DNA of 64,000 bases from Thiomonas delicata. GTDB taxonomy: Bacteria; Pseudomonadota; Gammaproteobacteria; Burkholderiales; Burkholderiaceae_C. Position 1 is the stretch's first letter. Every line of letters begins with the position of its first letter. The translations under genes and the position numbers were made by a program. The stretch spans positions 730,590-794,589 of the forward strand of contig NZ_LT592170.1 in the NCBI RefSeq assembly GCF_900088825.1, in the 5' to 3' direction. Below the pieces are notes generated by a model. It searched no databases. It was given only the letters and a program-made list of their open reading frames with translations, and had not been told where the DNA came from. Of this stretch, positions 11,998 to 44,802 are shown in pieces.

Positions 11998-12013
11998 GCG
12001 CCCCCCTTGGGGG

Positions 12014-12049: not shown

Positions 12050-12075
12050 GATCCGCGTCGCATCTCCTGCGGGAA

Positions 12076-21505: not shown

Positions 21506-21540
21506 GCACGACGACGCGGCGCCGTGCCGCGAGACGCTTG

Positions 21541-21565
21541 GGCCCGCCACGGCGGGCCTTTTTTT
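21541..21565 (+). terminator. intrinsic terminator of phoX
   Basis: GGCCCGC and GCGGGCC stem around CACG, followed by seven T residues (21559-21565). It lies 36 bases after the phoX stop and just before the end of the convergent ABC gene. Confidence 0.88.
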
Positions 21566-21573
21566 GGCGCGCG

Positions 21574-23284: not shown

Positions 23285-23320
23285 GCCTGTTCCTCCACGG
23301 GCGATGCCGCGCGTCTGGCC

Positions 23321-24727: not shown

Positions 24728-26952
24728 CAGAACCTCGCTTCCAGGCTCAGGTAGTAGCTGCGCGGCATGTTGAGATAGACATAGGGGTTGCTGGAACTGC
24801 CGCCGTAGCTCGTGTTGTAGGTCTTGTCGAGCAGGTTGTCGACGTTGAGCGAGACCGTGAGTTTCTGCAGCCCCAGGCCCTGCACCGTGTCGCCGCGGTC
24901 GAAGGTGTAGCGCAGGCTGGCGTTGGCCAGGGTGTGCGCCTGGATGGGCGAGGTGGCGCCGTTGGAATACACGTAGTACGACTCGCCCGCGTACTGCGCG
25001 CCGAGCGAAGCGCGCCACGGCCCCTGGGTGTAGATGCCGCCGACCGCCAAGGTCTGGTGCGGGGCATACGGGAAGGGTTTGTTGCTCGCGCGCAGCTGGG
25101 CGTTGAGCAGGCCGAGGTTGGCGTACATCGACCACATGCTGCTGAAACGGAAGTTGTTCTGCCAGGCGATGCCTTCGTTGACGGCGCTCCCCGCGTTCTG
25201 CAACTGGCTGCCCTGCTGGCCGCTGGGCAGGGTCACGTTCGTGGACAGGATGTAGTTCTGGAAGTCGACGCGGAACACGTCCACGCCGCCGCTCCAGATG
25301 CCGGCTTGATACAGCAGACCCATGTCGTAGGTCTTGGCCTGCTGCGGGTTCAGGTTGGGGTTGTAGGTGCCGGTGTAGTACTGGTTGTACTGCGGCGGCT
25401 GGGTGTTCTCGGTGTAGTTGGCGTAGGCGTGCAGGCCCTGCGCGAGCTTGTAGTTCACCCCCAGCGAAGGCATGGTGGTGCTGAAGTCGTTGTTGAACTG
25501 GCCGGGCTGATTCTGCGCCAGCGCCACATCGTTCGTGAAATCGCGGCTGACCTTGAGGTACTTCAACCCGCCCTGGACGACGAGGTCAGGCGTGGTGTTC
25601 CAGGTGAGGTTGAAATAGGGCTCGACCAGCTTGGTCGTCACCGGCTCGACATAGCTCGAACCCAGGTACTGGCCGCTGGTGCTGCTGAAGTACCGGCTGT
25701 CGTGCGTGGTGTCGTTGTTGTTGGTCCAGAGCCCGGCTTCCAGGCCCAGGGTGCTGGCCAGCGGCGTGTTCAGGCGCAGGATATTGCCCCAGCGCTTGGT
25801 GTCGTTGATGCCATGCGTCACGAACAGCCCGCCCGCGGGCGCGAACACTTTCTGCGCCACGCCGCTTGGAACCAGCAGGGTGGTGGACGCAGCAGCGCTG
25901 GCGCCGCCACCAAAGCCGTTGCCACGATAGAAGTAGAGCTGATCGGACAAGGTGGTCTGGCCGAAGGTGGCTTCGTACTTGGCGTAGCTCAACCAGTTCT
26001 GGTACTGGTTGTATTTGTAGGCCGGGGAATTGGGGTTGGGCTTGCCGTTGACCACCGTGGCGCCGCGGTTGCTGTTGCAGGTGTCGCCGTATGTGGCCAG
26101 GTCGGCCGCGGTGCAGCCGCCGTAATAGCCGAAGTTCTGGTTGTTCTGGCTGTAGAACAGCGTGAGTGCGCCGGGGCCGATCTGGCTCACGCTCTTGAAC
26201 AGGTACTGCTTCTGGTCGCTCGGGGTGTTGTCGAAATAGCCGTCGCTGTGGTTCTTGTTGGCATAGAGCCAGAAGGCCGTGGGGGCGCCGGTGCCGGCGC
26301 CGAGCAGGCCGGAGTTGAGCAGGACGCCTTCGTTGTAGGTGCCGAACGAGCCGTACCCGGCCAGCAGCGAGGCCGACATCTTCGGATCGGGGTTCAGGCT
26401 GTAGGTTTCCACCGATCCGCCGAACGCGGCCAGGCCGGGAATGGCCGCCGAGCCCGCGCCGGGGAAGTAGCGCGTGCCGGCAATCAGGCGCGTGGGAATG
26501 AACTCGTTGCTGTAGAAGGCGTAGCTGTCGTTGTCGTTGAGCGGAATGCCGTCCAGCGTCCAGTTGATCAGGCTCTTGTCGAAGCCGTTGATGTAGACGT
26601 TGTCGCCGTTCTGGCTGGAGCCGGTGCTGACCACCATCACATTGGGCATATTCGACAGCGCCTGGGTGAAGGAATCGGTCGGGTTGAGCAGCTGGAACTG
26701 GCCGGCGGTGATCGTGGTCTGGGCCTGGGTTGCGTCGGGGTTGAATTGCTGGATGGTGTCGAGCTGTTGCTGCGCAAGGTTGCCGACCGTGCCGGCGGGC
26801 GCCTGGAGGAAAAAGCCGCCGCTTGTTGCCGCGGCGGCCTGCCCCTGGGCCTGGACCTCGCCGAGGCTGGTCTGGGCTTGGGCAAGATGCGCACTGCCGA
26901 AGCACAGGGCCAGCGCGAGGGCAAGACGGGTGGGATGGCTGTGGATTTTCAT
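24727..26952 (-). CDS. TonB-dependent outer membrane receptor coupled to phoD
   Basis: 741 aa. Signal peptide MKIHSHPTRLALALALCFGSAHLAQA-Q. A plug domain follows (ITAGQFQLLNPTDSFTQALSNMPNVMV, then NGDNVYINGFDKSLINWTLDGIPLND), and a 22-strand barrel with short Tyr/Asn-rich strands ends in LSLEARF with the C-terminal Phe needed for outer membrane assembly. No siderophore-specific feature stands out. Coupling to phoD and the 11-bp repeat array in its promoter suggest uptake of a phosphate ester or its organic moiety; the substrate is inference. Confidence 0.92.
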   Translation of the reverse strand: MKIHSHPTRLALALALCFGSAHLAQAQTSLGEVQAQGQAAAATSGGFFLQAPAGTVGNLAQQQLDTIQQFNPDATQAQTTITAGQFQLLNPTDSFTQALSNMPNVMVVSTGSSQNGDNVYINGFDKSLINWTLDGIPLNDNDSYAFYSNEFIPTRLIAGTRYFPGAGSAAIPGLAAFGGSVETYSLNPDPKMSASLLAGYGSFGTYNEGVLLNSGLLGAGTGAPTAFWLYANKNHSDGYFDNTPSDQKQYLFKSVSQIGPGALTLFYSQNNQNFGYYGGCTAADLATYGDTCNSNRGATVVNGKPNPNSPAYKYNQYQNWLSYAKYEATFGQTTLSDQLYFYRGNGFGGGASAAASTTLLVPSGVAQKVFAPAGGLFVTHGINDTKRWGNILRLNTPLASTLGLEAGLWTNNNDTTHDSRYFSSTSGQYLGSSYVEPVTTKLVEPYFNLTWNTTPDLVVQGGLKYLKVSRDFTNDVALAQNQPGQFNNDFSTTMPSLGVNYKLAQGLHAYANYTENTQPPQYNQYYTGTYNPNLNPQQAKTYDMGLLYQAGIWSGGVDVFRVDFQNYILSTNVTLPSGQQGSQLQNAGSAVNEGIAWQNNFRFSSMWSMYANLGLLNAQLRASNKPFPYAPHQTLAVGGIYTQGPWRASLGAQYAGESYYVYSNGATSPIQAHTLANASLRYTFDRGDTVQGLGLQKLTVSLNVDNLLDKTYNTSYGGSSSNPYVYLNMPRSYYLSLEARF

Positions 26953-27686: not shown

Positions 27687-30386
27687 TCAGTCGTCGGCGT
27701 CTTTTCCGGCGATCAGGCTCGAGACCGGACGGTGCTGCCGCGCGGCCAGGGCCTGCACATGGGCCAGCATCGCGGCATAGGCTTGCGGGCCCTTGGTCGC
27801 CAGCCAGACTTGGCGCATCTGCTCGGGCCCGCTGATTTTCAGCAATTCGGTGGGCGTGTAGCGCCGCGCGGCTTCCGGCGACTGGGCGGCCAGGCGCATG
27901 TCGCCGGGCACCTGCGCCACCGGCATCGCGGCGAAAGGCGAGTCGGCCGGACACGTGCCGGGGTTGCGCTGCAGCGCGAATTCCATCGGCAGCACCTGGG
28001 TCTGCGCAGCGTCCGGGTGTACCCGCCAGATGCCGTCCAGCACATGGGCGTTGGCATCCCACTGCGACATCGGCGCAATGCCGGCCACGGCTTCGATGGT
28101 GCGCAGCAGGTCCACCTGCGACAGGTGCCGCGTCACCAGCATTCCCGGCTTGACCCATGGCCCCGCGGCCACCGCGAAGGTACGGTGCGCGTCGATGTGG
28201 TCGGCGCCGGATTGCGCGTCGTCCTCGGTCAGCAGCACCAGGGTGTGTTTCCACTGCGGCAGGCGCGAGACGGCGTGGATGACCTGCGCCGTGGCCAGGT
28301 CGTTGTTGGCGACGTAGCTGTCGGGGCTGGGCAGGCAGGGCGCGCGGCCGGCGGTGTGGTCGTCCGGCAGCCAGATGTAGAGCACGCGTGGCAGAGGGTG
28401 GGCGCGCAGCCATTCTTGCGCGATGGCGGCGCGGTCGGTGTCGAGCACCAGGCGGTCCCAGGCCGGGTAGTCCACCGCGAGGTGCTGGCGCAGCGCGGGC
28501 GAGATGTCGCCGATCCTGTTGCGCGAGGCGAATTCGCCGAAGTCCTCGAAGCTCACATGGTGCGCCAGCAGGTCGTTGAACAGGAACAGGCGGGCCGGGT
28601 AGGTGATCCAGGGATTGCTCCAGTGGCCCAGCGCCGAGAGGCTCTGGTAAATCGCGTGCGGGTTGCGCGCGCCGCGGGCGTCGGGCGCCAGCGACTGCGT
28701 CCAGCCCGAGTTGGCGATGTAGCCGCGGTCGGAGTAGTACAGCGGCCAGGTGCGCTGCACGACGTCCGAGTCGGAGCCGGCGGTGGTCCACTGGTGGCCC
28801 TGCGAGGTGACCTCGCCGTCGGCGTAGAAATGGACGAACAGCGCACCGTGCTCCGCCATCGTGTACAGGTTGGGCAGTTCGCGCGGGCCGTAGAGGTCGA
28901 GCTTGGGATCGGCCCATGGGCCCGCGCCGGGATACTTGCCCAGGGCCTCGTCGAAGGTCTTGTTCTCGCGCAGGATGAACACGACGTGGCGGATATGCCC
29001 GTGCAGCCAGGCGGTGGCGCGGGCGTTGGCGGCGGCCAGCACCCGGCGCTGCGCGGCGCCGAAACCGTTGTGGTCCAGGGCCTGCCGTGTCCACGCCGCG
29101 GCGTGCGCGGGCAGCTCGCGCAGGTCCACGCGCTGCAGCAGGCCGTGCATGAAATCGCCTACCCACTGGTGATGCACGTTCGGCCCGCTGCCCATGCCCT
29201 TGGCGCTCACGACGTCAAGCGCGTCGTTCTGCACGGCCAGGGACGTGGGGTACCAGCCGGTGGGAACGAGCGCGACGCGGCGGCCGGTTTTCAGGTCGTA
29301 GATCGCCACGTCGTCGTTGCCGGCATTGGCCACGAACAGCCGGCCGTTGGCGACCGCCAGCGCGTCGGGATAGCTGCCGGGCGGCGCTCCCGGGTACGGC
29401 GCGTCGTCGATGCTGCGCACCGCCTTGAGGCTGCGGGTGTCGACGGCGACGATGCGGTCGAGGTTGGCGTCGGCCACCCACACCAGCGGCGTGCCCGGCT
29501 GCGCCGCCAGCGCGGTGGGATGCGCGCCCGCGCCGGCGCTTCGCGGCCCCAGCACGGGACCGGTGGGCACTTCGCCCAGCACCTTCCACGCGGCGCGGTC
29601 GATCACCGTCACGCCGTTGCCGCCCCAGTCGCTGACCACCAGGCGGCGGGCGCCGTCGGCCAGGGCCACGGCATAGGGATAGCTGCCCGCGTGGAGATAG
29701 GCGGTCGCTCCGCTTTGCAGGTCGATGCGCGCCACGCTGTTGCTCAGCATGCCGCTCACATAGGCATGGCGCCCGCGTGGGCCGATCACCACGCTGTCGG
29801 GGTAGAAGTGGCGCGGCTGCTGCCAGTTGCCGGCGTATTGGTAAGGGTACTGGCTGCGGGGGAAGGGCTGCCATTGCAGGGCGTAGCGGCGCACCAGGCG
29901 CAGCGTGCCGCCCTGGCGGCGCAGGGCCAGCAGATCGTCGCTGTCGCCGCCTGTGGCGTAGAGCGTGCCGTCCGGGCCCGCCGCCAGGCCCTGGAACAGG
30001 CTCTGGCCCTTGATGGTGCCGGCGTCGCCTTCGTCCTCCGCGGCGCCGGGCTTGCCTTGCGCCACCGTGGCGCCCGGCGCCGCGCGCCGGCCTTCCTTGG
30101 TCTTCAGCGTGGCGATGCCGCCTTGCGGCGCCAGATCGCCTGCCGCGTACAGGCGCAGGCTCTGCGCCTTGTTCGCGCCACCGTCGAGCACGGCCAGGAC
30201 ATCGCCGCTCGCGACGACCTGGGTGGGGAAGTTGGGCGTGGCGGCCACGTCGCCGACCGGGGCGAGAACACGCCCGCTGGGCAGCACGGCCTGGGGTGGG
30301 TCGGCAGCCCAGGCCGGCACCGGCGCCAACGTCAGCGCTGCCGCGAGAACACGATGCCAGAGTCCTGCGCCGGTTTTCGTCTGCAT
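27687..30386 (-). CDS. bifunctional YncE-type beta-propeller/alkaline phosphatase-like phosphoesterase
   Basis: 899 aa with a Sec signal (cleavage near AWA-AD, about 22). Residues 40-420 are a YncE-like seven-bladed propeller (VIGPRGRHAYVSGMLSNSVARIDLQSG, VSDWGGNGVTVIDRAAW, VANAGNDDVAIYDLKTGR). The C-terminal half is a phosphoesterase-family (PF04185-like) catalytic domain: HVVFILRENKTFDEALGKYPG with the nucleophile region ENKTFD, VTSQGHQWTTAGSDSDVVQR, YIWLPDDHTAGR and LTEDDAQSGADHIDAHRT supplying metal ligands. It should release phosphate in the periplasm. GGGGAGA precedes the ATG at 30386. It is the last gene of the uptake operon. Confidence 0.9.
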   Translation of the reverse strand: MQTKTGAGLWHRVLAAALTLAPVPAWAADPPQAVLPSGRVLAPVGDVAATPNFPTQVVASGDVLAVLDGGANKAQSLRLYAAGDLAPQGGIATLKTKEGRRAAPGATVAQGKPGAAEDEGDAGTIKGQSLFQGLAAGPDGTLYATGGDSDDLLALRRQGGTLRLVRRYALQWQPFPRSQYPYQYAGNWQQPRHFYPDSVVIGPRGRHAYVSGMLSNSVARIDLQSGATAYLHAGSYPYAVALADGARRLVVSDWGGNGVTVIDRAAWKVLGEVPTGPVLGPRSAGAGAHPTALAAQPGTPLVWVADANLDRIVAVDTRSLKAVRSIDDAPYPGAPPGSYPDALAVANGRLFVANAGNDDVAIYDLKTGRRVALVPTGWYPTSLAVQNDALDVVSAKGMGSGPNVHHQWVGDFMHGLLQRVDLRELPAHAAAWTRQALDHNGFGAAQRRVLAAANARATAWLHGHIRHVVFILRENKTFDEALGKYPGAGPWADPKLDLYGPRELPNLYTMAEHGALFVHFYADGEVTSQGHQWTTAGSDSDVVQRTWPLYYSDRGYIANSGWTQSLAPDARGARNPHAIYQSLSALGHWSNPWITYPARLFLFNDLLAHHVSFEDFGEFASRNRIGDISPALRQHLAVDYPAWDRLVLDTDRAAIAQEWLRAHPLPRVLYIWLPDDHTAGRAPCLPSPDSYVANNDLATAQVIHAVSRLPQWKHTLVLLTEDDAQSGADHIDAHRTFAVAAGPWVKPGMLVTRHLSQVDLLRTIEAVAGIAPMSQWDANAHVLDGIWRVHPDAAQTQVLPMEFALQRNPGTCPADSPFAAMPVAQVPGDMRLAAQSPEAARRYTPTELLKISGPEQMRQVWLATKGPQAYAAMLAHVQALAARQHRPVSSLIAGKDADD

Positions 30387-30421
30387 GTCGAATCTCCCCC
30401 AGCGTCCGTCCGGCGCCGGAT

Positions 30422-30583
30422 TCAGTGGCCTTGCCACACGCTGGCGGCGATGAGGGCCGCCACCAGCACCCAGCCGCTGGCGGCCGGCGCCCAGCGGGCG
30501 ACCGTCCAGGCCAGTAGCACCGCCGCCGCCACCGACGCGATATTGCGCACGTCGCCGAAAATCAGTTGCATGACTTTTTTCAT
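30422..30583 (-). CDS. 53-residue membrane protein of the uptake operon
   Basis: 53 aa: MKKVMQLIF, then two hydrophobic stretches (IASVAAAVLLAWTVARW and GWVLVAALIAASVW) separated by a short polar turn, ending in WQGH. Its ATG overlaps the stop of the FTR1-like gene as ATGA, which strongly supports that it is translated. No family recognised. It could be a small partner or assembly factor of the preceding membrane protein. Confidence 0.7.
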   Translation of the reverse strand: MKKVMQLIFGDVRNIASVAAAVLLAWTVARWAPAASGWVLVAALIAASVWQGH

Positions 30584-31323
30584 GCGCCCGCTCCTTGCAC
30601 GCCGGCCATGGGCACGCGCAGCTTGAACGCCGCGAGGCGCCCGGCCACCACGTACACCGCGAACAGGAGCAGCAGCGTGGCGTCGCCCAGCGGCCACACC
30701 TGGGCTTCGCCCAGCAGCCCGCCCAGGCTCCAGAAGGTGCCGAACGACAGCAGCGCGCACGCCACGGTGAACTTGAGGGTGTTCTCCGGCACCTTGGTGA
30801 GCGGCTTGCGCAGCACCAGGCCCACGGCAATCACGGCCAGCAAGGCCGCCAGCGCGCTGGCGGTGGCCTGGCCGTAGCTGATGGTGCGTCCGAGCGCCAC
30901 CACCAGCAGCCACACCTCCAGACCTTCGAGCAGCACGCCCTTGAAGGCCACGGCCCAGGCCACGCGGGTTTCGGCGTGGTCGATGGCCTTGCGCGTCTCG
31001 GCGAACTCCGCGGCTTCGTCGTGCAGCCTGGTGCGCCCGGCGTAGCGGCGAATGGCCTTGACGTACCAGCGCAGCCCGAACAGCAGCAGGAATAGGCCGA
31101 TGGCGGCGCGGATCAGGCCGATGTCGGCCTGCACCACGGCCAGGCCGATGCCGGTGACCGCGATCAGCCCCGCCACCACCGCCAGCGCCGCCAGCGCCGC
31201 GCCTGCGGCGCGCGCCCAGCCGATGGTCAGCGCCACCGCCAACACGATCGTGAAAGCCTCCACCCATTCGACGCCGGACGCCAGAAAAATCGCGCCCATC
31301 CCGCCCCATTGCGTTGCATTCAT
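30580..31323 (-). CDS. FTR1-like (COG4280-type) integral membrane protein with two ExxE motifs
   Basis: 247 aa, about seven membrane helices. Two ExxE motifs occur in membrane helices, E19-W-V-E22 in ASGVEWVEAFTIVLAVAL and E133-G-L-E136 in GVLLEGLEVWLLVVALG, an arrangement like the paired RExxE motifs of FTR1/EfeU iron permeases but lacking the Arg. Between them is a charged loop rich in His, Asp and Glu (RLHDEAAEFAETRKAIDHAETR). It resembles the uncharacterised COG4280 group as I remember it. A metal or anion transport role is inferred. It overlaps both neighbours by ATGA. Confidence 0.75.
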   Translation of the reverse strand: MNATQWGGMGAIFLASGVEWVEAFTIVLAVALTIGWARAAGAALAALAVVAGLIAVTGIGLAVVQADIGLIRAAIGLFLLLFGLRWYVKAIRRYAGRTRLHDEAAEFAETRKAIDHAETRVAWAVAFKGVLLEGLEVWLLVVALGRTISYGQATASALAALLAVIAVGLVLRKPLTKVPENTLKFTVACALLSFGTFWSLGGLLGEAQVWPLGDATLLLLFAVYVVAGRLAAFKLRVPMAGVQGAGA

Positions 31324-32399
31324 GCCGCCACGTCCTCCGTTGTCGTGCTGGTTTCGGGGAAAAGAAAAACCTGTGCCGCGCCGATGCGCAGATCCAGCAT
31401 GCCGTCCGCCGGACGCGCCGTGGCGGGCAGCCGAAGCTGGACGCCATGCAGGTCCACGCGCCATTCGTCGCGCTCGCCGGCCGGGCGCCGACCGAGCACG
31501 CGCGCACGCACCGGCCAGTACGCCTGGGCGCCGTTTTCGGCGTCGTCCGCGCGCAGCGCGGAGGCCCGAAGATACAGCGCGTAGCCGCCGTCGACCTGGC
31601 CGGCGAGCTGGGGCGGCGCGTCGACCACGCCCCACGGCGCGTGCAGCCGGCCCGCGCGCAATGTGGCGGGCCAGGGGCCGTGCGCACCGGTGAAGCGGGC
31701 GACGAAGGCGGTCTGCGGTTTGTGCAGTAGGTCCATCGGCGCGCTCAACTGCAGCAGCCGGCCTTGCGCCATCACGCCGACGCGGTCGGCCAGCGCCAGC
31801 GCCTCGTGGTGGTCGTGGGTGATGTACAGCGCGCTGATGCCGTGTTCGCGCACCACCTCGCCGATGAGGTCGCGCAGCTCCTCGCGCAGGCCGGCGTCCA
31901 GGTTCGACAGCGGCTCGTCGCACAGCAGCAGGCGCGGCTTGCCCACCAGCGCCCGCGCCAACGCCACGCGCTGCTGCTGCCCGCCCGAGAGGGCGTGCGG
32001 GTGGCGCTCGGCCAACTCGCCCAGGCCCACCTGGCCGAGCATGTGTCGCGCACGTTCGCGCGACGCCCCGCGCCCGAGCCGATGCAGCGGCAGCGCCACG
32101 TTGTCCAGCGCGGTGAGGTGGGGCCACAGCGCGTAGTCCTGGAACACCATGCCGAGCTGGCGTTGCTCGGGCGGCAGCCAGGCGCCGCCAGCGGCGTCCA
32201 CGACCCGCCCGCCCAGGCGCATCGCGCCGCCGTCCAGGCGTTCCAGCCCCGCCACCAGGCGCAGCAGGGTGGTCTTGCCCGATCCGGAGGGGCCGAGCAG
32301 GCAGAGGATTTCTCCGGCCTGCAATTGCAGGCTCACATGGTGCAAAGCCGTGATGGCGCCGTAGCGCTTGTGCGCGGAATCGATGTGCAGCAAGGTCAT
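31320..32399 (-). CDS. ABC transporter ATPase (Fe3+/organophosphonate/polyamine import class)
   Basis: 359 aa. Walker A GPSGSGKTT (about 38-46), Q-loop VFQDYALWPHLTALDNVALPL, signature LSGGQQQRVALARALV, Walker B LLLCDEPLSNLD and H-loop ITHDHHEALALADR. After residue 235 a C-terminal TOBE-like domain of about 110 residues follows, as in FbpC, PotA and AEP-type importers. It starts 2 bases after the permease stop and its stop overlaps the next gene. It energises import by the fused permease. Confidence 0.93.
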   Translation of the reverse strand: MTLLHIDSAHKRYGAITALHHVSLQLQAGEILCLLGPSGSGKTTLLRLVAGLERLDGGAMRLGGRVVDAAGGAWLPPEQRQLGMVFQDYALWPHLTALDNVALPLHRLGRGASRERARHMLGQVGLGELAERHPHALSGGQQQRVALARALVGKPRLLLCDEPLSNLDAGLREELRDLIGEVVREHGISALYITHDHHEALALADRVGVMAQGRLLQLSAPMDLLHKPQTAFVARFTGAHGPWPATLRAGRLHAPWGVVDAPPQLAGQVDGGYALYLRASALRADDAENGAQAYWPVRARVLGRRPAGERDEWRVDLHGVQLRLPATARPADGMLDLRIGAAQVFLFPETSTTTEDVAA

Positions 32400-32401
32400 G
32401 A

Positions 32402-34117
32402 TCAGGTCCGGTTCGACACACCCAGCTGACGCCATGCCGCTGGCGTCAGGCGCTGGTACGCCCAGTGCGCCAGCAGCGCGAAGGCCAGCAGCACCGCCAT
32501 GCCCAGCACCTGCAGCAGCGCCTGCTGGTGCAGCTGAAATCCCCCCGCGTACTGCAGCAGGGCCACGGCCAGCGGCGGATGGCCGGCCGGATAGAGCAGC
32601 TCGGACGCCGGCATTTCGAACGCGATGGTCAGCACCGCCAGCAGCCAGGCGTAGAACAGCGGGCCGGCCAGCAGCGGCAGGTGCACATGGCGCAGGGTCT
32701 GCCCGCGCGATAGCCCGTGCACCCGCGCCGCGTCGCCCAGCGCGCGGTGCAGTTGCGCCACCGGCCCGAGCAGCACGCGGCTGGACGCCGGCACCGCCAG
32801 CGCCACATAGGCCATGCCCAGCAGCAGGCTGCCGCCATACAGCGGCGCGTAGGGCTGGTTGTAGGCCTGCAGATACGCGGCGGCCAGCACGATGAGCGGC
32901 AGCGCCATCATCGCCAGCAGCACGGTGTCCAGTGCGCGGCCGAGGCGCCCCGGCCGCGCGATCAACCACGCCACCGGCAGCGCGATCAGCACCGTGGCGC
33001 TGGCGGCGGCGAGCGCCAGCTCGAGCGAATACGCCACGGCCGCGAGAAGCGGCGGCAGCGCGCGGGCGATCTGCGCCCAGCCGCCTTGCGGCCACGCCAC
33101 CCCCAGCGCCGCCAGCGTGGGAACCACCAGCGCGAACAAGCCCAGCGCCAGCAGCAGAGCGGCGTGCACCGCCTTGGGCGCGGGGCGCAGGCGCACGCGC
33201 GCGGCGGGGCGATGTTTGGAGCCCAGGGTCTGGTGCAGGGCTGCGCGCCGCCCCACCAGCCCTTGCAGACCCATGGCCGGCAGCACCAGCGCCAGCAGCA
33301 GCCAGGCCGTGGCGGCGGCCAGCGGGAAGTTCAGCGGCATGCCGTTGACCGCCTGATAGATGGCGTAGGTGCCCATGGTGAAGCCGCTGCTGGCGCCCAG
33401 CGTGGCCACCACCGCGAAGTTGCGCAGCGACTCGGCATAGGCGATGGCGAATCCCGCCGCCAGCGCCGGCAGCAGCGCGGCCAGCGCCAGGCGCAGGCGC
33501 CAGGCACGCGACAGGCCGTGCACGCGCGCGGCTTCCTGCAACGCGGCGCTGCTGTTCTGCAGACTGCCCTGGGTGACGAGATAGACGTAGGGCATGGTCT
33601 TGAGCGCCAGGGTGATGACGATGCCCGCTGGCCCGAGCAGCAGCTGCGCCAGGCGCAGGGCGGCCGGCCAGTGCGCCAGCGGGCCGATGGGCGCGGCCAG
33701 CAGCATCCAGCCCGAGGCGAGGAAAAAGTCCGGGAAGATCAGCAGCAGCCACACGCCGGCTTCGATCCAGCCGCGCGCCGGCAGGTCGGTGCGCACGCGC
33801 AGCCAGGCCAGCCAGGCGCCCAGCGGCAGCGCCAGCGCGCCCACCAGCAGCGCCACCCACAGCGAGTTCCACAGCGCGTGCAGCGCGTAGCCCTGCGCCG
33901 CCTGTCGCAGCGGGGCGAGGGTCATGCGCAAGTCGCCCTGCAGCACATGGGGCATCCAGGCCGAGAGCAAAAAACCCAGCAGGGGATAGGCCCACAACGC
34001 CGCGAAGGCCAGCGCCGCCAGCAGCAGCCCGGCGCGCACGGCCCAGCGGCGCAGCAGCGCGCGCGGCCATGCGGCATGCTGCGGCACGGTCAGCGTGTCG
34101 GTCTCGGACAGCCACAT
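32402..34117 (-). CDS. fused two-domain ABC permease (FbpB/AEP-transporter type)
   Basis: 571 aa with about 12 membrane helices, two permease domains in one chain. EAA loops are LQEAARVHGLSRAWRLRLALAALLPALAAG (about 200) and LGDAARVHGLSRGQTLRHVHLPLLAGPLFY (about 475). This arrangement is found in ferric iron (FbpB/AfuB), thiamine (ThiP) and 2-aminoethylphosphonate importers, so sequence class alone does not settle the substrate. It lies between binding-protein and ATPase genes. The ATG at 34117 is 58 bases from the binding-protein stop. Confidence 0.92.
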   Translation of the reverse strand: MWLSETDTLTVPQHAAWPRALLRRWAVRAGLLLAALAFAALWAYPLLGFLLSAWMPHVLQGDLRMTLAPLRQAAQGYALHALWNSLWVALLVGALALPLGAWLAWLRVRTDLPARGWIEAGVWLLLIFPDFFLASGWMLLAAPIGPLAHWPAALRLAQLLLGPAGIVITLALKTMPYVYLVTQGSLQNSSAALQEAARVHGLSRAWRLRLALAALLPALAAGFAIAYAESLRNFAVVATLGASSGFTMGTYAIYQAVNGMPLNFPLAAATAWLLLALVLPAMGLQGLVGRRAALHQTLGSKHRPAARVRLRPAPKAVHAALLLALGLFALVVPTLAALGVAWPQGGWAQIARALPPLLAAVAYSLELALAAASATVLIALPVAWLIARPGRLGRALDTVLLAMMALPLIVLAAAYLQAYNQPYAPLYGGSLLLGMAYVALAVPASSRVLLGPVAQLHRALGDAARVHGLSRGQTLRHVHLPLLAGPLFYAWLLAVLTIAFEMPASELLYPAGHPPLAVALLQYAGGFQLHQQALLQVLGMAVLLAFALLAHWAYQRLTPAAWRQLGVSNRT

Positions 34118-34175
34118 CGTCGGGAATCCAGGAGGTTGAGGCGTCGGGGGCGTGGCGAGGAACCGGGCGGCGGTC

Positions 34176-35219
34176 TCAGCGCGCGATGTGCGCCGTGAAC
34201 CAGTTGATGATCGCGGCTTCCTTGCTTCCCCACAGCGCCGGGTCGATCACCTGGGTATGCACCGTGCCCAGGTCTTGCAGGCTGGGCAGCGGCCGCACGC
34301 CGACAAGCAACGGCAGGTAGTTGGAATCGGCCGAAGGGTCGCCATGCTGCATGGCGGCCTGACCCGCCGGGGAGAGCACGAATTCCACGAAGCGCCGCGC
34401 CTGCTGCTGCAGCGCGCCGCGGACGGATTTGCCGATGGCCAGGTCCGACGGCAGCACGGTGCTCGGCGCCGGCGCGGCGATCTTCAGGCCCGGCATGTCG
34501 TGCGCGAAGCCCAGCGCGGCCGAGCTTTGCACCACCGCGGCGTCGATCTGGCCGTATTGCAGCGCGCGCAGGGTCACGCTGTTGGTGGGGAACACCTTCA
34601 GGCCGTTGGCCTTGAGACGCTCGAAATAGGCTTCGCCCGGTTTGTCGCCCATCTGCGCCAGCACACCCGCCACCAGCGGGTAGGTGGGACCGGAGATGGC
34701 CGGGTTGTTCATGCCCACCTTGCCGCGCAGCGCGGGCTTGGCCAGATCGTCCCAGGTCCTGGGCCAGTCCGCCGGGGCGATGCGCTCGGGGTTGAACAGC
34801 ACCACGCCGGCATAGGTCACGCCCACCGGCTGCCAGCAGCGATCGGCGGGCTCCAGCTCCTGGCCCAGCGCCGTGTAATGCACCGCCGGCGCCCAGCCGC
34901 ATTGCAGCAGCCCCTGTTTGGCAAAGGTCTGCATGGCCTGGTTGCCGTCCAGCCAGATCACGTCCCACTGCGGGTTGTGCGCTTCGGCCTGCACCCGCGC
35001 CAGCAGCGGCCCGGTGCTCAGGTGGATGAGGTTGACCGGAATGCCGGTGGCCTTGGTGAAGGCGTGCGCGACCTTCTGGTCGTAACCCATGGCGCCGTAC
35101 ACCGTGAGCGTGGCGCCGAGCGCCGCGCCGAGACCGCCTGCGGCGAGCAGCAGGGCCACGGCGCCGAGGCGCAGCTTGGTGGAAAGGCGCGAGGGCAAAA
35201 GCTTGATCGAGAGCTTCAT
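34176..35219 (-). CDS. periplasmic solute-binding protein of the uptake operon
   Basis: 347 aa. Long N-terminal signal (basic start, core LGAVALLLAAGGLGAALG, cleavage near ALG-AT). The mature chain, LTVYGAMGYDQKVAHAFTKATGIPVNLIHLSTGPLLARVQAE, then DVIWLDGNQAMQTFAKQGLL and KALRGKVGMNNPAISGPTY-like segments, belongs to the iron/phosphonate/phosphoglycerate-type binding proteins. The tyrosine pair typical of FbpA iron sites is not evident where expected, which leaves an organic phosphorus ligand open. Its ATG overlaps the tonB stop (ATGA). Confidence 0.88.
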   Translation of the reverse strand: MKLSIKLLPSRLSTKLRLGAVALLLAAGGLGAALGATLTVYGAMGYDQKVAHAFTKATGIPVNLIHLSTGPLLARVQAEAHNPQWDVIWLDGNQAMQTFAKQGLLQCGWAPAVHYTALGQELEPADRCWQPVGVTYAGVVLFNPERIAPADWPRTWDDLAKPALRGKVGMNNPAISGPTYPLVAGVLAQMGDKPGEAYFERLKANGLKVFPTNSVTLRALQYGQIDAAVVQSSAALGFAHDMPGLKIAAPAPSTVLPSDLAIGKSVRGALQQQARRFVEFVLSPAGQAAMQHGDPSADSNYLPLLVGVRPLPSLQDLGTVHTQVIDPALWGSKEAAIINWFTAHIAR

Positions 35220-35953
35220 GAATCGTTCAGGTGAAAGCGCACCCAGATGTCGAAGGTCATGCTCCGGCCTTGCAAGGGCGTGGGCGTGGCGGGATAAGGC
35301 GCCCGGCGCACGGCGTCCATCGCCGCGTTGTCCAGCAGGTCGCTGCCGCCACTGGTGACCACGCGCACGCCGCTGATCTGGCCGTCGCGGTAGGTGAAGG
35401 CCACCAGCGTCTTGCCTGTCAGATGCATCAGGCGCGCGGCCGTCGGGTAGTGCACCGCGGCCTGGATGGCGCTGCGCAGTTGCGCCTCGAAATCCGCCTT
35501 GATCGAAGCCAGGTCCACCGCAGGCGGGGCTGGAGGCGGGGGAGGCGCAGGCGGCGCGGGCGCGGCCACCGGCATGGCCGGATGCGTGTCCGGCACCGGC
35601 GCGGGCGGTGCCACCACCTTCGGCGTCGGCAGCGGCGGCGGCACCACCGGTCTGGGCGCCACGTGATGCATCACCGGCTTCGGCAGCGGTTTGGGCTGCG
35701 GCTTCGGCATGGGTTTCGGGATCGGCTTGGGGATGGGCTTGGGCGCAGGCGGCGCCACCGTCTTCGGCGCAGGCCGGGGCGCCTCCAGCACGATCTGCAT
35801 CGGCGGCGGGGGCGGCGGCTCGGGCGCATGCCGGGCGTACCACAGCACCCCGCCGATCAGGGCCGCCTCCACCACCAGCGCCAGCGCCGCCGCCGCCGGC
35901 CAGCGCCGCGCGTCGTCCGGCTCGCGCCAGGGCGCGGCATGCACCGCGCTCAT
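35216..35953 (-). CDS. tonB: TonB protein of the uptake operon
   Basis: 245 aa. Membrane anchor at about 21-40 (AAAALALVVEAALIGGVLWYA), then a long Pro/Lys spacer (PKPIPKPIPKPMPKPQPK and PPAPPPPPAPP) reaching across the periplasm, and the C-terminal TonB fold (VHYPTAARLMHLTGKTLVAFTYRDGQISGVRVVTSGG, MTFDIWVRF). A dedicated TonB placed with ExbB, ExbD and an ABC importer suggests it serves the receptor encoded upstream. Overlaps exbD and the binding-protein gene by ATGA on both sides. Confidence 0.95.
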   Translation of the reverse strand: MSAVHAAPWREPDDARRWPAAAALALVVEAALIGGVLWYARHAPEPPPPPPMQIVLEAPRPAPKTVAPPAPKPIPKPIPKPMPKPQPKPLPKPVMHHVAPRPVVPPPLPTPKVVAPPAPVPDTHPAMPVAAPAPPAPPPPPAPPAVDLASIKADFEAQLRSAIQAAVHYPTAARLMHLTGKTLVAFTYRDGQISGVRVVTSGGSDLLDNAAMDAVRRAPYPATPTPLQGRSMTFDIWVRFHLNDS

Positions 35954-36360
35954 GGCTGCGTACCCCCGCCCCCCGGCTGCGCGGCCAGGCCGATCCTGGT
36001 CACCCCGGCGGCGCGGCAGGCGTCCATCACCGCCATGAGCTGCTGCAGCGAGGTGTCCTTGTCCCCGGCCAGCGTGACCTGCAGCGCATCCGGGTGTGGC
36101 TTGGCCTTGAGCACCGCGGTGAGCTGCTGGGGCGTGAGGGTCTGGTGCTCCAGGTGGATCACCCCGGCCTTGTCCACCGCCAGCGTGAGCTGCGGCTTGG
36201 GCATGGCCTGCGCGGTGGAGCTGGTGGGCAGGCGCGAGGCGATGCCGGCGTCGGGAATCATGTGCAGCGTGACCATGATGAAAAACACCAGCAGGAAGAA
36301 CATGATGTCGATCATCGGAATGATCTCGATGCGGGCCTTGCGAGTTTCGAAATACTTCAT
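35950..36360 (-). CDS. exbD: ExbD proton-channel subunit
   Basis: 136 aa. Short cytoplasmic N-terminus, then one helix IEIIPMIDIMFFLLVFFIMVTL with the essential Asp (D18), and a periplasmic domain (LQVTLAGDKDTSLQQLMAVMDACRAAGVTRIGLAA). With ExbB it converts proton flow into TonB movement. The start is 100 bases after the exbB stop, the largest internal gap of this operon. Confidence 0.95.
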   Translation of the reverse strand: MKYFETRKARIEIIPMIDIMFFLLVFFIMVTLHMIPDAGIASRLPTSSTAQAMPKPQLTLAVDKAGVIHLEHQTLTPQQLTAVLKAKPHPDALQVTLAGDKDTSLQQLMAVMDACRAAGVTRIGLAAQPGGGGTQP

Positions 36361-36460
36361 GGCGACTCGACGGAGAAAAAAGGCGCCGCAGCACGGCTGC
36401 GGCCCAAGCGGGCGTGCTGCCGGCCCGCGCTGACTCGCTGACTGGCAGGGAGGATGAGGC

Positions 36461-37222
36461 TCAGGCGACGTGCTGCTGCAGCACCGCGGGCTTGGCCGGG
36501 TGTTGCAGGGCCTGGGGGCGGGCGGCGGTGGGGTGGACTGCGGCGGGATGGGCCGCAGTGGCCTGGCTCGAGGCGCCCTGGCCGCCGTGCACGCCGCCGC
36601 TGCGGTAATGCGGGTACATGCGGTTGGTCAGCATGAGCTTGATGCGCTCGAGCTGGTGCAGCACCAGGCGCACGCGCTGGTTCAGGGCGTTGAAGGCCAC
36701 CAGGCCGAGCACGGCGATGAACAGGCCGGCGGCGGTGGCCAGCAGGGCTTCGCCCACGCCGCCGGTGACGGCCTGGGTGGCCGCTCCGGGGTTGGACAGG
36801 GCCTGGAAGGTGTTGAACATGCCGATGATGGTGCCCAGCAGTCCCAGCAGCGGGGCCAGGGTGACGATGGTGTCGAGCACCCACAAGCCGCGGTCGATGC
36901 GCGGGGCCTGGTCCATGACGGCTTCCTCGAGGCTGCTGGAGAAATGCTCCAGGGTGTCGCCGAGGTCGTGGGCCAGGGCCACGGCAACGACCTGCGCGGC
37001 CGAGGAGCCGCTGTCTTGCTCGGCGCGCGCGCGCAGCAGCCGGGTGTCGACGTGGGCGTGGCCCTTGAGCTCGCGCACCCAGGCCTTGCACTGCGCCTGC
37101 ATGCGCCCCAGCGCCCAGAACCGCTCGATCATCACCGCCAGCGCCACCGCCAGCAGCACGAACATGATGTACAAAATGCCGCCGGAAGTCTGGGCGAGAT
37201 GGGTGATGGTTTCAAGCGACAT
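36461..37222 (-). CDS. exbB: ExbB proton-channel subunit
   Basis: 253 aa. Three membrane helices: ILYIMFVLLAVALAVMIERF (about 16-35), LDTIVTLAPLLGLLGTIIGMFNTF (about 118) and GGVGEALLATAAGLFIAVLGLVAFN (about 155), the last two being the MotA/TolQ/ExbB signature. The C-terminus has an unusual His/Ala/Pro/Gln-rich tail of about 45 residues (AAHPAAVHPTAARPQALQHPAK). It is the first gene after a Pho-like promoter and opens the nine-gene run to the phosphoesterase. Confidence 0.95.
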   Translation of the reverse strand: MSLETITHLAQTSGGILYIMFVLLAVALAVMIERFWALGRMQAQCKAWVRELKGHAHVDTRLLRARAEQDSGSSAAQVVAVALAHDLGDTLEHFSSSLEEAVMDQAPRIDRGLWVLDTIVTLAPLLGLLGTIIGMFNTFQALSNPGAATQAVTGGVGEALLATAAGLFIAVLGLVAFNALNQRVRLVLHQLERIKLMLTNRMYPHYRSGGVHGGQGASSQATAAHPAAVHPTAARPQALQHPAKPAVLQQHVA

Positions 37223-37260
37223 GATCAGACTCCAAAAACTCGATTCAGGACAATCTCGAA

Positions 37261-37294
37261 AACATAGTGGATCTTTATGTCAACGCTTTGACAG
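37261..37294 (-). promoter_or_regulatory. Pho-box-like promoter of the exbB operon
   Basis: On the minus strand CTGTCAA AGCG TTGACAT (37294-37277) has two half-sites 11 bp apart, 11 of 14 consensus positions. Ten bases further is TATGTT (37266-37261), a good -10. The predicted transcript starts about 30 bases before the exbB ATG. The same bases also form the palindrome TGTCAA-N4-TTGACA. Confidence 0.65.
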
Positions 37295-37359
37295 ACGGAG
37301 GGCAGTATGCGGGAGGCACATTTCCACACATACTGGCCCTCGCGCAATGCGGCCGAGAT

Positions 37360-39705
37360 TCAAAAATCGGCCGTTACGCTGGCGTAAAGGGTTCTTGGCG
37401 CGCCAGGCAGGGCAAGAACCTGGCCTTTCGACGCGCCGCCGAGCCAGCCACCGCCGGTAACGAATTCGAACGGGTTGTACTGTTTGTTGGTCGCGTTCAG
37501 GACATCAATGCTGAAATGCACGGTATGGACCATCGACTGATGCGTCGGCACAACGCCATCGAGCCCAAGATTCAGCAGTCCGTAACCCGGGATTTTCTGA
37601 TTGCTCGTCGCCCCCAGTCCGTTGTCAAACATGTTTTGTGCGCCGACGTATTGATACCAGACCTTCGGCTCCCAAAGCACGCCGGATTGATAGTATTGAT
37701 AAGTTGCGCCAATATTGAACGTGCGATTCGGCACATTCGCCACCGGAAGCCCGTTGTAGCTGACGCCGCCCGTGACATAATTGTTGAAGTCGGCTTTCTC
37801 GATATTGAGGTTGGCAAAAACATTCAAGTTGTACAGCACGTCGTCCGACGCGCTGATGTTCACGCCTTTGTACACGGAATCGCCATTGGCATCGCCAAGA
37901 TAATTGCCGTTCGAATCAAAGAGCGGGATGTACTGATTGCTGAAATGCAGGTGATAATAGGAGGCGGAGAGCAGGAAATTGTGCAGATAGGCGCTGTTCT
38001 TCACGTGGATCTTGAAGCCGACGTTGTAGTCCTGGCTCTTTTCCAGGTTGTAGATGGGCGGATTTGATTGATACAGTCCGCCGCCGCCCCCAACCTGGGG
38101 TTCCTTGTACGCAACGGCGTAATTTCCGAATAATGCCAACCAATCCAAGGGGCGATAATTGGCGCTGATCGACGGCTCGGTGTCGTGGTGCGACACATTC
38201 GCGGCAGGGAGCGTGCCCTGGTTGTTGTTCGGATACAGGGCGTAGGCCTGGGGAAAATCCGCCTGGGCGCCAGGATAATAATTGGTCTGATCGTTGATGA
38301 ATCGGATCCCCGGCGTGATGTCAAGGTTGGAAAGAGGGCTGATCTTGTCCTGTGCGAAAACCGCCAGATCGGTTTGATCCCAATAGTCGCTCCGGTAATG
38401 GGCATTGGGAACGGTCTGACTTCCGAAATAAGGCGGGTTCGGATTGTAGAATGCGTTGCGCGAATTGTAATGGCTTTTCAGGAAAAACCCGCCGACGCTG
38501 ATGACGTTATAAGGTAATGAGATGTCGCCCCAAAGCTTGTCTCCGTAGGTCGACGTCGACGGGTTGTTGTGTTCAAACAGGTTGCCGGGATTGCCCATGC
38601 CATAATTGTTGTAATGATCATGCACGCGTTCGCCGAGTCGATACCAAATCAAGTTGTGAATCGCGAGATTGGAATCGGCCTGAATATTGAACTTGCCGTA
38701 GATCAGGCGGGTTTTATTGGTGTCGATTTTGTACCAGACATTGGCCGGGATCGAGCTGTAAAATCCGGATGTGGGTTGACTATAAAGAGGGGTGTTGGCG
38801 GTTCCGTCCAGCGTGACGCCGGCGATGGGCTGAACCGGAATCATCACGGGCCGGTATCCCGTACCGCGGGCCTGATAAAAGCCGAATGACATATCGCCCT
38901 GGTCGAGCTGTTTGCGCGTCTTCAGGAAAAACGCGTAGTTCTGACTGCGGTTATCAAAACCATCGACGCTGGTTCTGTAGCTGTTGGAGGAGCCCGTGCC
39001 GCCCGCGATGATCGTGGACCAGCCGTCATGGGCTCCGGTGTTCAGGCTGTAGGAGAGATTTCTTGCGCCATAGCTGCCCACGCTCAAACCAATCGAGCCT
39101 CCCGCCTGCGGGGTCGGTTGCAGGGGAACGAACGCAATTTGTCCGCCGATGTTGTTGTACCAGCGGTCCTCGGGATCGCCCGGACCATAGGTGATGCCGA
39201 TGCCTTGCAACAGGCTGAGTTGGGGAACCTGCGGCGATTCCCACAGCCCTGTCGATGGGTTGACCATCGGCACCCCGTCGAAGGTGACGGAGAGGGCGCC
39301 GTTGTCGATCTGGCCATTCGAGAAACCGCCCCAGCCTTGCTTGAGGCCATTGACGCTGATGGAGTTCTTCGTCGAGCCGGTGGCGCCGTATCCCGTGACG
39401 CCGACGCCAGGCGCAAGAGACAGCGCCTGCGCGCTGCCGCCCACTGGACCGGCCGCCTGCAGTTCGGTTTTGCCCAGGACCTTGGTCGACTGCCCGGATT
39501 TGAAGACATGCTCGGGCTGGAGTTTTTTCGATTCCGTGCTTTGGGTTTTGGCCGTCCCGCCCTGGCCACCGGCCTGGACGGTGCCCAGGTCGGTGGCGGC
39601 GCTTTGGGCCTGGGCCGCGGCGAACGGCGCCGACAGCAGGGTGGCGAGCAGGGTCTGCGCGAGCACGGTCCGCTTGAACGCGGGCCGGTTGGCTGGGTGT
39701 TGCAT
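37360..39705 (-). CDS. TonB-dependent outer membrane receptor upstream of exbB operon
   Basis: 781 aa. Signal peptide ends near AQA-QS (about 34). The plug domain has SVNGLKQGWGGFSNGQIDNGALSVTFDGVPMVNP and IGITYGPGDPEDRWYNNIGGQIAFVPLQP; the barrel ends YASVTADF. GGAGGA lies 5 bases before the ATG at 39705. Much of the barrel-coding part is visibly lower in GC than its neighbours (for example 26 of 60 bases from 38641, against 40 of 60 in exbB from 36901), which suggests different ancestry. Substrate unknown; context points to a phosphorus or iron compound. Confidence 0.92.
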   Translation of the reverse strand: MQHPANRPAFKRTVLAQTLLATLLSAPFAAAQAQSAATDLGTVQAGGQGGTAKTQSTESKKLQPEHVFKSGQSTKVLGKTELQAAGPVGGSAQALSLAPGVGVTGYGATGSTKNSISVNGLKQGWGGFSNGQIDNGALSVTFDGVPMVNPSTGLWESPQVPQLSLLQGIGITYGPGDPEDRWYNNIGGQIAFVPLQPTPQAGGSIGLSVGSYGARNLSYSLNTGAHDGWSTIIAGGTGSSNSYRTSVDGFDNRSQNYAFFLKTRKQLDQGDMSFGFYQARGTGYRPVMIPVQPIAGVTLDGTANTPLYSQPTSGFYSSIPANVWYKIDTNKTRLIYGKFNIQADSNLAIHNLIWYRLGERVHDHYNNYGMGNPGNLFEHNNPSTSTYGDKLWGDISLPYNVISVGGFFLKSHYNSRNAFYNPNPPYFGSQTVPNAHYRSDYWDQTDLAVFAQDKISPLSNLDITPGIRFINDQTNYYPGAQADFPQAYALYPNNNQGTLPAANVSHHDTEPSISANYRPLDWLALFGNYAVAYKEPQVGGGGGLYQSNPPIYNLEKSQDYNVGFKIHVKNSAYLHNFLLSASYYHLHFSNQYIPLFDSNGNYLGDANGDSVYKGVNISASDDVLYNLNVFANLNIEKADFNNYVTGGVSYNGLPVANVPNRTFNIGATYQYYQSGVLWEPKVWYQYVGAQNMFDNGLGATSNQKIPGYGLLNLGLDGVVPTHQSMVHTVHFSIDVLNATNKQYNPFEFVTGGGWLGGASKGQVLALPGAPRTLYASVTADF

Positions 39706-39919: not shown

Positions 39920-40621
39920 TCAGTCCGGCGTCGCGAAGGGTCCGGCGTCTTCCGTCCGCGCCCAGCGGTAGCCCACGCCGTGCACGGTCTGCAGCCGAAC
40001 GTCCAGCCCGTGCGGACGCAGCGCGCGACGCAGCCGGCCGACCGCCGTGTGCACGGTGTCGGGGTGGGCGCGGGCCGGAATGTCCATTGCCAGGCGCAGC
40101 GCCTGCGGGCTCATCACATGGCCGCGTTGCGCGGCAAGCGACCACAGCAGATGAAAGAGCTGCGGCGCGAGTTCGACGGACTGCGTGCCCACGCGCAGCT
40201 GCCGGGTCTGCTCCTGCAGCGCCAGCGTGTCGTCGAGCACCATCCAGCCATCGGGCTGCGGCGCCACGCGCTCGCGCAGCCTGGCCAACTGGGCGCGGAT
40301 CAGCGGCGCCGTGCTGCCCTGGAGCAGCACGGCATCGACACCGGCGCGCAGCGCCGCCAGCGCACCGGGCGCGGCCACGTCGGGCAAGAGGGCCACCACG
40401 CCGGGAAGCCAGCCGCTGGGCTGGTGACGCAGGCGCATGGCCCAGGTGGTGAGTTCGTGCGTGTCGTGGCCGCTCACGGCCAGCGCGGCCCAGGCGTCGC
40501 CCGCGCGCAGGCGCTGCAGGGCCTCCTCCGGCTGCACGGGTTGCGAGTTCGGGTCGCCGCAATCCGCGCAGGACGTGTCGAAACGCACGCACAGCACGGA
40601 ATGTTTGACAGGATCGCTCAT
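39920..40621 (-). CDS. OmpR/PhoB-type winged-helix regulator with degenerate receiver-like domain
   Basis: 233 aa. The C-terminal 100 residues are a winged-helix DNA-binding domain (LELAPQLFHLLWSL-like helix, VMSPQALRLAMDIP, HPDTVHTAVGRLRRALRPHGLDVRLQTVHGVGYRW). The N-terminal 125 residues look receiver-like in length and helix pattern (LPDVAAPGALAALRAGVDAVLLQGSTAPLIRAQLARL), but the phospho-acceptor Asp at the expected position is not evident. An early CxxC (SCADCGD) might sense metal or redox. No histidine kinase is nearby. It lies between the repeat arrays of its own promoter and of the receptor gene. Confidence 0.78.
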   Translation of the reverse strand: MSDPVKHSVLCVRFDTSCADCGDPNSQPVQPEEALQRLRAGDAWAALAVSGHDTHELTTWAMRLRHQPSGWLPGVVALLPDVAAPGALAALRAGVDAVLLQGSTAPLIRAQLARLRERVAPQPDGWMVLDDTLALQEQTRQLRVGTQSVELAPQLFHLLWSLAAQRGHVMSPQALRLAMDIPARAHPDTVHTAVGRLRRALRPHGLDVRLQTVHGVGYRWARTEDAGPFATPD

Positions 40622-40730: not shown

Positions 40731-40748
40731 ATGACGGCATTGTGACGG
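40731..40748 (-). promoter_or_regulatory. Pho-box-like site upstream of the winged-helix regulator
   Basis: Plus strand ATGACGG CATT GTGACGG: two half-sites 11 bp apart, on the minus strand CCGTCAC and CCGTCAT, close to CTGTCAC/CTGTCAT. A weaker third unit (GCCACAG, 40753-40759) continues the 11-bp register. It reads toward the regulator gene. Confidence 0.6.
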
Positions 40749-40857
40749 GCCGCCCACAGGTTCACAATCGAGGGGCCTCGGCGTGCCTGCGTGGGCAATA
40801 TCGAGATTTTTTCCGGAATGGGCGGCGGGCGCGAGACGGCGCACGAAGCTCCCCCTC

Positions 40858-40881
40858 CCGGCCTCCCCCAGGCGTGGGGGA
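40858..40881. repeat. GC-rich palindromic intergenic element
   Basis: CCTCCCCCA GGCG TGGGGGAGG, a perfect 9-bp stem, resembling the dyad at 14037-14085. It may be a member of a dispersed repeat family. Confidence 0.4.
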
Positions 40882-40938
40882 GGTGGGAAAGACAGGCGCG
40901 AACCGGTGGAAATTTCCCAGCGGCCCAAGGAGCGCCCC

Positions 40939-44595: not shown

Positions 44596-44698
44596 GATGA
44601 GGCTCTCCTGTGGGGGTTCCGGCGCCGATCCATCGGCAGGCCCCTGCCGCAAGCGTGCGCCGGTAGACCCCACCGTAGGGCGCGCATGTGATGGCCCA

Positions 44699-44739
44699 GT
44701 GAAGGATTTGTGAAGGATTCGTGGCAGGATTTGTGATGT
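44699..44739 (-). promoter_or_regulatory. Pho-box-like direct repeat array upstream of the phosphoesterase
   Basis: Plus-strand units GTGAAGG (44699), GTGAAGG (44710) and GTGGCAG (44721) are exactly 11 bp apart and joined by ATTT and ATTC; a fourth, GTGATGT (44733), is 12 bp further. On the minus strand they read CTGCCAC, CCTTCAC, CCTTCAC, matching CTGTCAC with A/T-rich 4-base spacers as in PhoB boxes. Confidence 0.7.
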
Positions 44740-44802
44740 TTTGCACAAATTTGGGTCCTCGCCAAGGCCCGCGCGGCGTCCGCGCGCCCCCGCGCCCCCG
44801 CG

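Follow-up and report, generated by a model that had tools for sequence, protein, structure and literature searches.

Here, we analysed a stretch of 64,000 nt (the window; coordinates are positions in it unless a locus is named) from the 3.84-Mb genome of Thiomonas delicata, which is assembled in 54 contigs. An earlier note, drawn from the letters alone, had described ten genes on the minus strand, running from 39705 to 27687, as an uptake operon, and the coordinates confirm both this row and the order given for it. The row opens with a gene for a TonB-dependent receptor (37360-39705; PF00593, beta-barrel, 8.3e-31), followed by exbB (36461-37222; PF01618, MotA_ExbB, 3.3e-29), exbD (35950-36360; PF02472, 3.5e-30) and tonB (35216-35953; PF03544, TonB_C, 8.4e-12). 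Genes for an ATP-binding cassette (ABC) importer come next: a periplasmic binding protein of the FbpA/AfuA/PhnS fold without the Tyr-Tyr iron site (34176-35219; matching four solute-binding Pfam families), a fused permease of 571 aa (32402-34117; two BPD_transp_1 stretches) and an ATPase (31320-32399; ABC_tran, 1.4e-35). The row ends with an FTR-like membrane protein (30580-31323; OFeT_1, 29.6 bits vs a cut-off of 26.9), a 53-aa membrane protein with an FGD motif (30422-30583), whose gene overlaps the FTR-like gene by ATGA, and, as an optional module, a YncE-type propeller joined to a PF04185 phosphoesterase (27687-30386; PF04185, 39.7 bits vs 23).

Pfam and NCBIfam bore out the family calls for nine of the ten proteins, the TonB, ExbB and ExbD families all exceeding their Pfam cut-offs, while the 53-aa protein had zero matches in either collection. 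A sequence search of the PDB with the receptor gave no match, and Rfam at its gathering threshold reported neither riboswitches nor other known RNAs in the window. From receptor to phosphoesterase, the junctions measure +137, +100, -4, -4, +58, +2, -4, -4 and +35 nt; seven of the nine agree with the earlier description of ATGA overlaps or gaps of 2-60 bases, and the receptor-exbB and exbB-exbD gaps do not. Two further elements lie outside the span first described. Directly upstream of the receptor we found a gene for an OmpR/PhoB-type DNA-binding regulator of 233 aa (39920-40621, minus strand; Trans_reg_C, 1.9e-10), for which no receiver domain was reported and which has an orthologue preceding the core at 12 other loci; a second receptor with a PhoD-like phosphatase follows downstream. 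A long plus-strand reading frame (40783-42717) diverges from the regulator gene and was read by eye as a FecR-like secreted protein.

A conserved core with an exchangeable phosphoesterase

The FTR-like gene is present in 24 of the 27 other genomes of the genus (none in G006, G019 and G021) and in one of 32 genomes from other genera. We examined the 24 loci around it (L111-L134), 13 of which have no contig end inside the unit. In 12 of these 13, the genes for regulator, receptor, ExbB, ExbD, TonB, binding protein, permease, ATPase, FTR-like protein and small protein follow one another on one strand in the same order, a recurrence that argues against a chance arrangement, and the 11 loci cut by contig ends are consistent with this order over their reach. 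The thirteenth uncut locus (L134, genome G001) is a decayed copy of the operon: of the core it has kept only the small protein and fragments of the FTR-like gene, which is broken there by two stop codons (11383-12108 of that locus). The permease of L124 is split into two overlapping reading frames. At L117 and L124, two of the 12, the receptor is closer to the profile of the second receptor, indicating that the receptor is exchangeable. Hence, the regulator and the nine genes from receptor to small protein form a real, conserved operon; synteny of all ten genes first named does not hold, since the phosphoesterase is not part of the conserved order.

The propeller of this phosphoesterase exceeds the cut-off of the beta-propeller repeat model TIGR02276 (51.7 vs 27.85) and stays below that of the YNCE model (21.9 vs 27.1), and its best PDB match is a surface layer protein (1L0Q). 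E474-N475, D523, D675-D676-H677, E721-D722-D723, D729-H730 and H734 are conserved to 97% or more (73 rows); we take residues of this kind to be the PF04185 active site. In none of the 24 Thiomonas-group loci reached through the FTR-like gene does the enzyme lie beside the core (0.4 to 7.3 kb downstream covered), and the two are joined only in the window, L032 and L034 (Thiomonas bhubaneswarensis DSM 18181). Beyond the phosphoesterase of the window lies a little plus-strand gene; at L111, a homologue of this gene (49 bits) comes next after the small protein, and we therefore regard L111 as the same site minus the enzyme. Strong relatives occur in 6 of the 27 other genomes of the genus (in G015 as two pieces), always on contigs other than those of the core, and five further genomes gave weak matches only. 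The phosphoesterase, which had been counted as an integral member, is thus a separate, exchangeable accessory module.

In a species collection, the best 80 of 89 relatives of the phosphoesterase were inspected; many come from metagenome-assembled genomes, and Thiomonas, Acidithiobacillus and Planctomycetota are among them. Thiomonas bhubaneswarensis and further Thiomonas records are found among the named close relatives of the locus. The expectation that the enzyme regularly lies beside a receptor held only in part: with two profiles as probes, a receptor was found within 1.5 kb in 29 of these 80 loci (27 on the same strand), and the loci without one comprise 27 cut and 24 uncut cases. Sixteen plasmid records also carry relatives, with identities under 60%.

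The window is rich in other phosphatases besides the YncE fusion (19346-25135 and 42823-44748). The second TonB-dependent receptor (TBDR2; 24727-26952, minus strand; Plug 8.9e-12, barrel 2.1e-34) is followed by a PhoD-like phosphatase (23321-24727, minus strand; PF09423, 2.6e-24), whose start shares one base with the stop of TBDR2. TBDR2 and PhoD often accompany the phosphoesterase module. As in the window, PhoD stands behind TBDR2 at L031, L032, L034, L055 and L108; behind the TBDR2-type receptor of L048 it was not found. A PhoX-like phosphatase lies further downstream of the operon on the plus strand (19346-21505, the limits of the open reading frame, the true start probably being downstream of a PHO box; PF05787, 7.9e-16), and another PF04185 phosphoesterase is encoded beyond the regulator (42823-44748, minus strand; 1.1e-60).

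PHO-box-like sites

A PHO box consists of tandem CTGTCAT-like 7-mers at 11-bp spacing, with the pattern CTGTCAY-N4-YTGTCAY. We found a direct repeat resembling it at a distance of 110-127 bp upstream of the regulator (40731-40748, minus strand; two mismatches to CTGTCAYNNNNYTGTCAY), and copies stronger than those of the window stand upstream of several regulator orthologues. Among 13 loci including the window, the 250 bp next to the regulator hold a best site with no mismatch in two loci, one in two, two in six, three in two and five in one. At up to two mismatches, this amounts to 10 of 13 regulator regions vs 10 of 4806 other 250-bp windows of those loci, and at up to three to 12 of 13 vs 69 of 4806, a contrast that is not a formal probability because most of the background windows are coding sequence and the loci are related to one another. 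A motif scan placed a further repeat in the gap between receptor and exbB (37277-37305, minus strand), and another with one mismatch lies ahead of phoX (19407-19424, plus strand).

The genome of the strain holds eight PHO-box sites with at most one mismatch, vs none in the reversed control. One of them begins 84 bp ahead of a gene that we read by eye as pstS, and one lies between genes read by eye as ppk and ppx. Upstream of phosphoesterase genes, or of the operons that they end, sites with up to two mismatches occur in 9 of 83 regions (truncated, reversed and too-short cases left out, some loci being near-duplicates) vs 0.7% of 17714 windows. The promoter feature of a Pho regulon, a PHO box, is accordingly present, and the motifs predict that the operon is probably switched on under phosphate scarcity. 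A scan with the Fur 19-mer over 22-44 kb of the window gave no site with fewer than six mismatches, and regulation by iron was rejected on these grounds.

Additional PHO-box-like sites with one mismatch each were seen at 15231-15248 of the window and in L178, L184 and L185. In the own genome and in Acidithiobacillus (L183, and L187 at 7840-8676), a gene read by eye as a UDP-diacylglucosamine-hydrolase-like metallophosphatase lies near a PHO-box-like site, which possibly points to lipid remodelling during phosphate starvation.

Clues to the cargo and similar units in other lineages

The model of the binding protein is good (mean pLDDT 89.2), and Foldseek returned FutA, FbpA, HitA, AfuA (glucose-6-phosphate), a 2-aminoethylphosphonate-binding protein, P5PA and thiamine-binding proteins with similar scores. 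As such diverse binders score alike, the fold does not name the ligand. In a profile alignment, Tyr195-Tyr196 of FbpA, which we take to be its iron ligands, fall on S233-A234, so that the protein lacks the hallmark of ferric binding, while the S-G and N positions of FbpA, presumably its anion site, correspond to invariant S176-G177 and N213. Naked Fe(III) is thus disfavoured, and an anionic ligand fits. The best NCBIfam models of binding protein, permease and ATPase are all parts of 2-aminoethylphosphonate importers (PhnS/PhnS2, PhnU2 and PhnT2); all three proteins stay far below the equivalog cut-offs, for example the permease over its full length with 62 bits vs 593 and the ATPase with 274 vs 457.7. 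In a phylum sample of 398 genomes, a relative of the binding protein at E <=1e-60 was found in the own genome alone. A search for phosphonatase was uninformative, as weak matches appeared in all 28 genomes of the genus as well as in all 14 controls and none exceeded the cut-off.

The FTR-like protein combines its OFeT_1 score with paired ExxE motifs (E19/E22 and E133/E136) that are invariant in 28 aligned rows. Its predicted fold (mean pLDDT 76) had no match in the PDB at E <=0.001, nor did its sequence match a PDB entry. Of 16 loci examined in other lineages, 14 gave a small-protein hit next to the FTR-like gene (one being the query itself), and one of the two misses, L208, is cut. At L173 (9369-9581), L175 (3872-4081) and L176 (9941-10153), the gene after the FTR-like one, which it overlaps by a base, encodes a membrane protein of 70-71 aa with an FVDDG motif, and the counterpart in L174 (7936-8187) has 84 aa as called. 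That of L173 had no Pfam or NCBIfam match. Homology of these alphaproteobacterial-like 70-71-aa proteins with the 53-aa protein was not significant, for which reason we claim only a shared position. In L169 (9552-10849), a ChrB_N protein is encoded immediately before an FTR-like gene, which hints at a different role within the family.

A similar unit is found in Acidithiobacillus KMB_Bin03 (L187, L189), with genes for regulator, ExbB, ExbD, receptor, TonB, binding protein (42% identical to that of the window), permease, ATPase and FTR-like protein, continued by a small protein, an RNase T2 and a PF04185 phosphoesterase with a twin-arginine translocation (TAT) signal. PHO boxes stand before its regulator, for which PhoB is the best model, under the cut-off, and before exbB. 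The FTR-like gene was identified from its sequence, Pfam reporting 0 families at E 0.001, and the small protein, which overlaps it by ATGA, begins like the 53-aa protein (L189, same place). A second Acidithiobacillus genome (G452, L208) shows the same succession as far as the FTR-like gene, at which its sequence breaks off; a tonB call is missing from it, and its regulator, exbB and exbD were identified by eye or position. Its FTR-like protein scores 167 bits against the L173 protein, and a perfect PHO box precedes the regulator and four tandem units precede exbB. In genus g143, two of five genomes examined (L173 and L201) carry genes for DUF1045, PhnM, PhnN, permease, ATPase, FTR-like protein and the 71-aa protein on one strand; L176 has DUF1045, PhnM, PhnN, FTR-like and 71-aa protein, and L171 and L172 have no phn genes. 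PhnM, PhnN and the DUF1045 protein of L173 pass NCBIfam cut-offs, and their counterparts in L176 and L201 were found by phmmer.

A proposed phosphorus importer and its rivals

What, then, does the operon import? We suggest, with a probability of roughly two in three, that it encodes a Pho-controlled importer that scavenges a phosphorus compound and is accompanied by an FTR-like pair and exchangeable phosphatases. The PHO-box-like repeats, the neighbouring phosphatases and the similar clusters in other lineages support this link to phosphorus, and the two-membrane phosphorus importer first proposed gains support from them; the phosphoesterase as a fixed part of it does not hold, and a related cluster had already been published in 2008 (PMC2631029). 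Judged from the motif, PhoB or the PhoB-like regulator of the operon would act on the PHO-box repeats. The dedicated ExbBD-TonB system, by its families, would power the receptor to bring the compound into the periplasm, where phosphatases may trim it: the YncE-phosphoesterase, PhoD, PhoX and the other PF04185 enzyme here, and RNase T2 with a PF04185 enzyme of its own in one Acidithiobacillus genome. The genes for all of these are present, and their activity and location are presumed. The binding protein of the FbpA/AfuA fold would use its conserved anion site to bind a small anionic phosphorus ligand for delivery to permease and ATPase. In what is the weakest step, the FTR-like protein and its small partner most likely handle a metal, probably ferric iron, arriving with the phosphorus compound, and the phosphoesterase at the 3' end would act as an exchangeable accessory.

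Several observations weigh against the proposed phosphorus importer, in addition to the limit set on the 250-bp contrast above. Under a stricter control (330-bp shuffles and a stricter pattern), P is <=0.05 in only 8 of the 13 loci (0.023 in the window; 0.067 to 0.647 in L117, L126, L128, L129 and L131). The window's own sites are weak, with two to three mismatches, L126 with its five mismatches lacks a site, and the repeat before exbB is not conserved in other Thiomonas. Phosphorus neighbours are often missing at other FTR-like genes (L169-L172, L174, L175 and L202-L207), and a binding protein was searched for without a match in L173. PhnJ is absent from all 28 genomes of the genus (the E. 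coli control being positive), which makes use of a phosphonate through carbon-phosphorus (C-P) lyase unlikely, and RNase T2 is absent from the same 28 genomes, so that an RNA-derived cargo is not simply transferable from Acidithiobacillus.

In the 2008 study, Acidithiobacillus and Leptospirillum are described to have TonB receptor clusters that also include phosphatases, surface layer proteins and PhoB-like regulators; these clusters are read as iron uptake, with phosphate as proposed iron chelator and Fur sites reported (PMC2631029). Carried over to the window, this model would make the operon primarily a ferric-iron uptake system of an acidophile, in which phosphate or organophosphate serves only as chelator, receptor and FTR-like protein carry the iron and Pho control is secondary. 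The membership of the FTR-like protein in OFeT_1 with two invariant ExxE motifs speaks for it, as do ferric-binding proteins as best PDB sequence matches of the binding protein, which also count against a phosphorus ligand. Yet the presumed iron ligands of FbpA align with S233-A234, and the 22-44 kb scanned hold PHO-box-like sites instead of Fur-like ones; we thus consider this explanation unlikely. The ABC importer might also carry a phosphorus-free ligand or cofactor, e.g. thiamine, a polyamine or a molybdate-like oxyanion, with the phosphatases as mere neighbours in a phosphorus-rich region, since its three parts have matches in several ABC subfamilies but reach no NCBIfam cut-off, and thiamine-binding proteins score about equal to phosphate-ester binders in the fold search. 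We hold this to be quite improbable, as 2-aminoethylphosphonate importer parts provide the best models for all three, and PHO boxes and phosphatases again accompany the unit in Acidithiobacillus.

How does the proposed phosphorus importer relate to known systems? The 2008 phosphate clusters, as far as the available text goes, share with the window a TonB receptor, ExbBD-TonB, a surface layer or propeller protein, phosphatases and an OmpR/PhoB-like regulator upstream (PMC2631029). By kinds of parts alone, the clusters there having FecA3, CirA2, CirA3 and FhuE1 as named receptors, the window contains every kind, spread over two modules; propeller and phosphoesterase are one protein here, whereas no ABC importer or FTR-like partner is named in that text (PMC2631029). 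Receptors there are described as mostly not organised with ABC transporters, the one exception being the 13-gene FepA2-FecA4 Fe-Mo cluster of A. ferrooxidans (PMC2631029). By part types alone, this cluster resembles the window in combining a pair of TonB receptors with a TonB system and with components of an ABC importer; it is described as linked to nitrogenase genes, with siderophore- and molybdate-binding proteins and no phosphatase named (PMC2631029). FbpABC/AfuABC/PhnSTU-type importers share the fold and the overall make-up of binding protein, permease and ATPase, whereas the parts in the window fall below every NCBIfam equivalog cut-off and lack the FbpA iron tyrosines. The earlier note knew of no described system that joins all parts. 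In the literature searched, which omitted most subscription journals, we found no account of this ABC-FTR unit combined with a TonB system and Pho control, but a phosphate-associated TonB cluster of this kind is on record (PMC2631029).

The PusCD systems of Flavobacterium are induced by phosphate depletion and likewise combine TonB-dependent uptake with periplasmic phosphatases (PMC8115612), the regulation in the window being predicted only. They use a SusCD-type pair (PMC8115612), whereas none of the ten window proteins matches a SusD family. By analogy of function, the PUS systems of Bacteroidetes are functional analogues of the operon. A tentative extension, which we regard as possible though doubtful, would make the operon a proteobacterial PUS counterpart that imports intact metal-organophosphate complexes: organic phosphate bound to iron or aluminium would enter via receptor and TonB, exchangeable phosphatases would strip it, the ABC importer would take up the part that contains phosphorus, and the freed metal would be cleared or imported by the FTR-like pair, all under Pho control. 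If true, this route would be an uptake fitted to iron-rich waters with metal-locked phosphate.

Phosphorus acquisition by acidophiles, where iron precipitates phosphorus, is poorly understood. With its conservation, its PHO-box link, an energised outer-membrane step, an ABC importer of its own and an FTR-like pair, the operon presents a concrete path that can be tested. OFeT_1-type proteins next to phn genes, together with their small partners, are likewise placed in a context. Our results further suggest that some acidophile clusters annotated as iron uptake may serve phosphorus.

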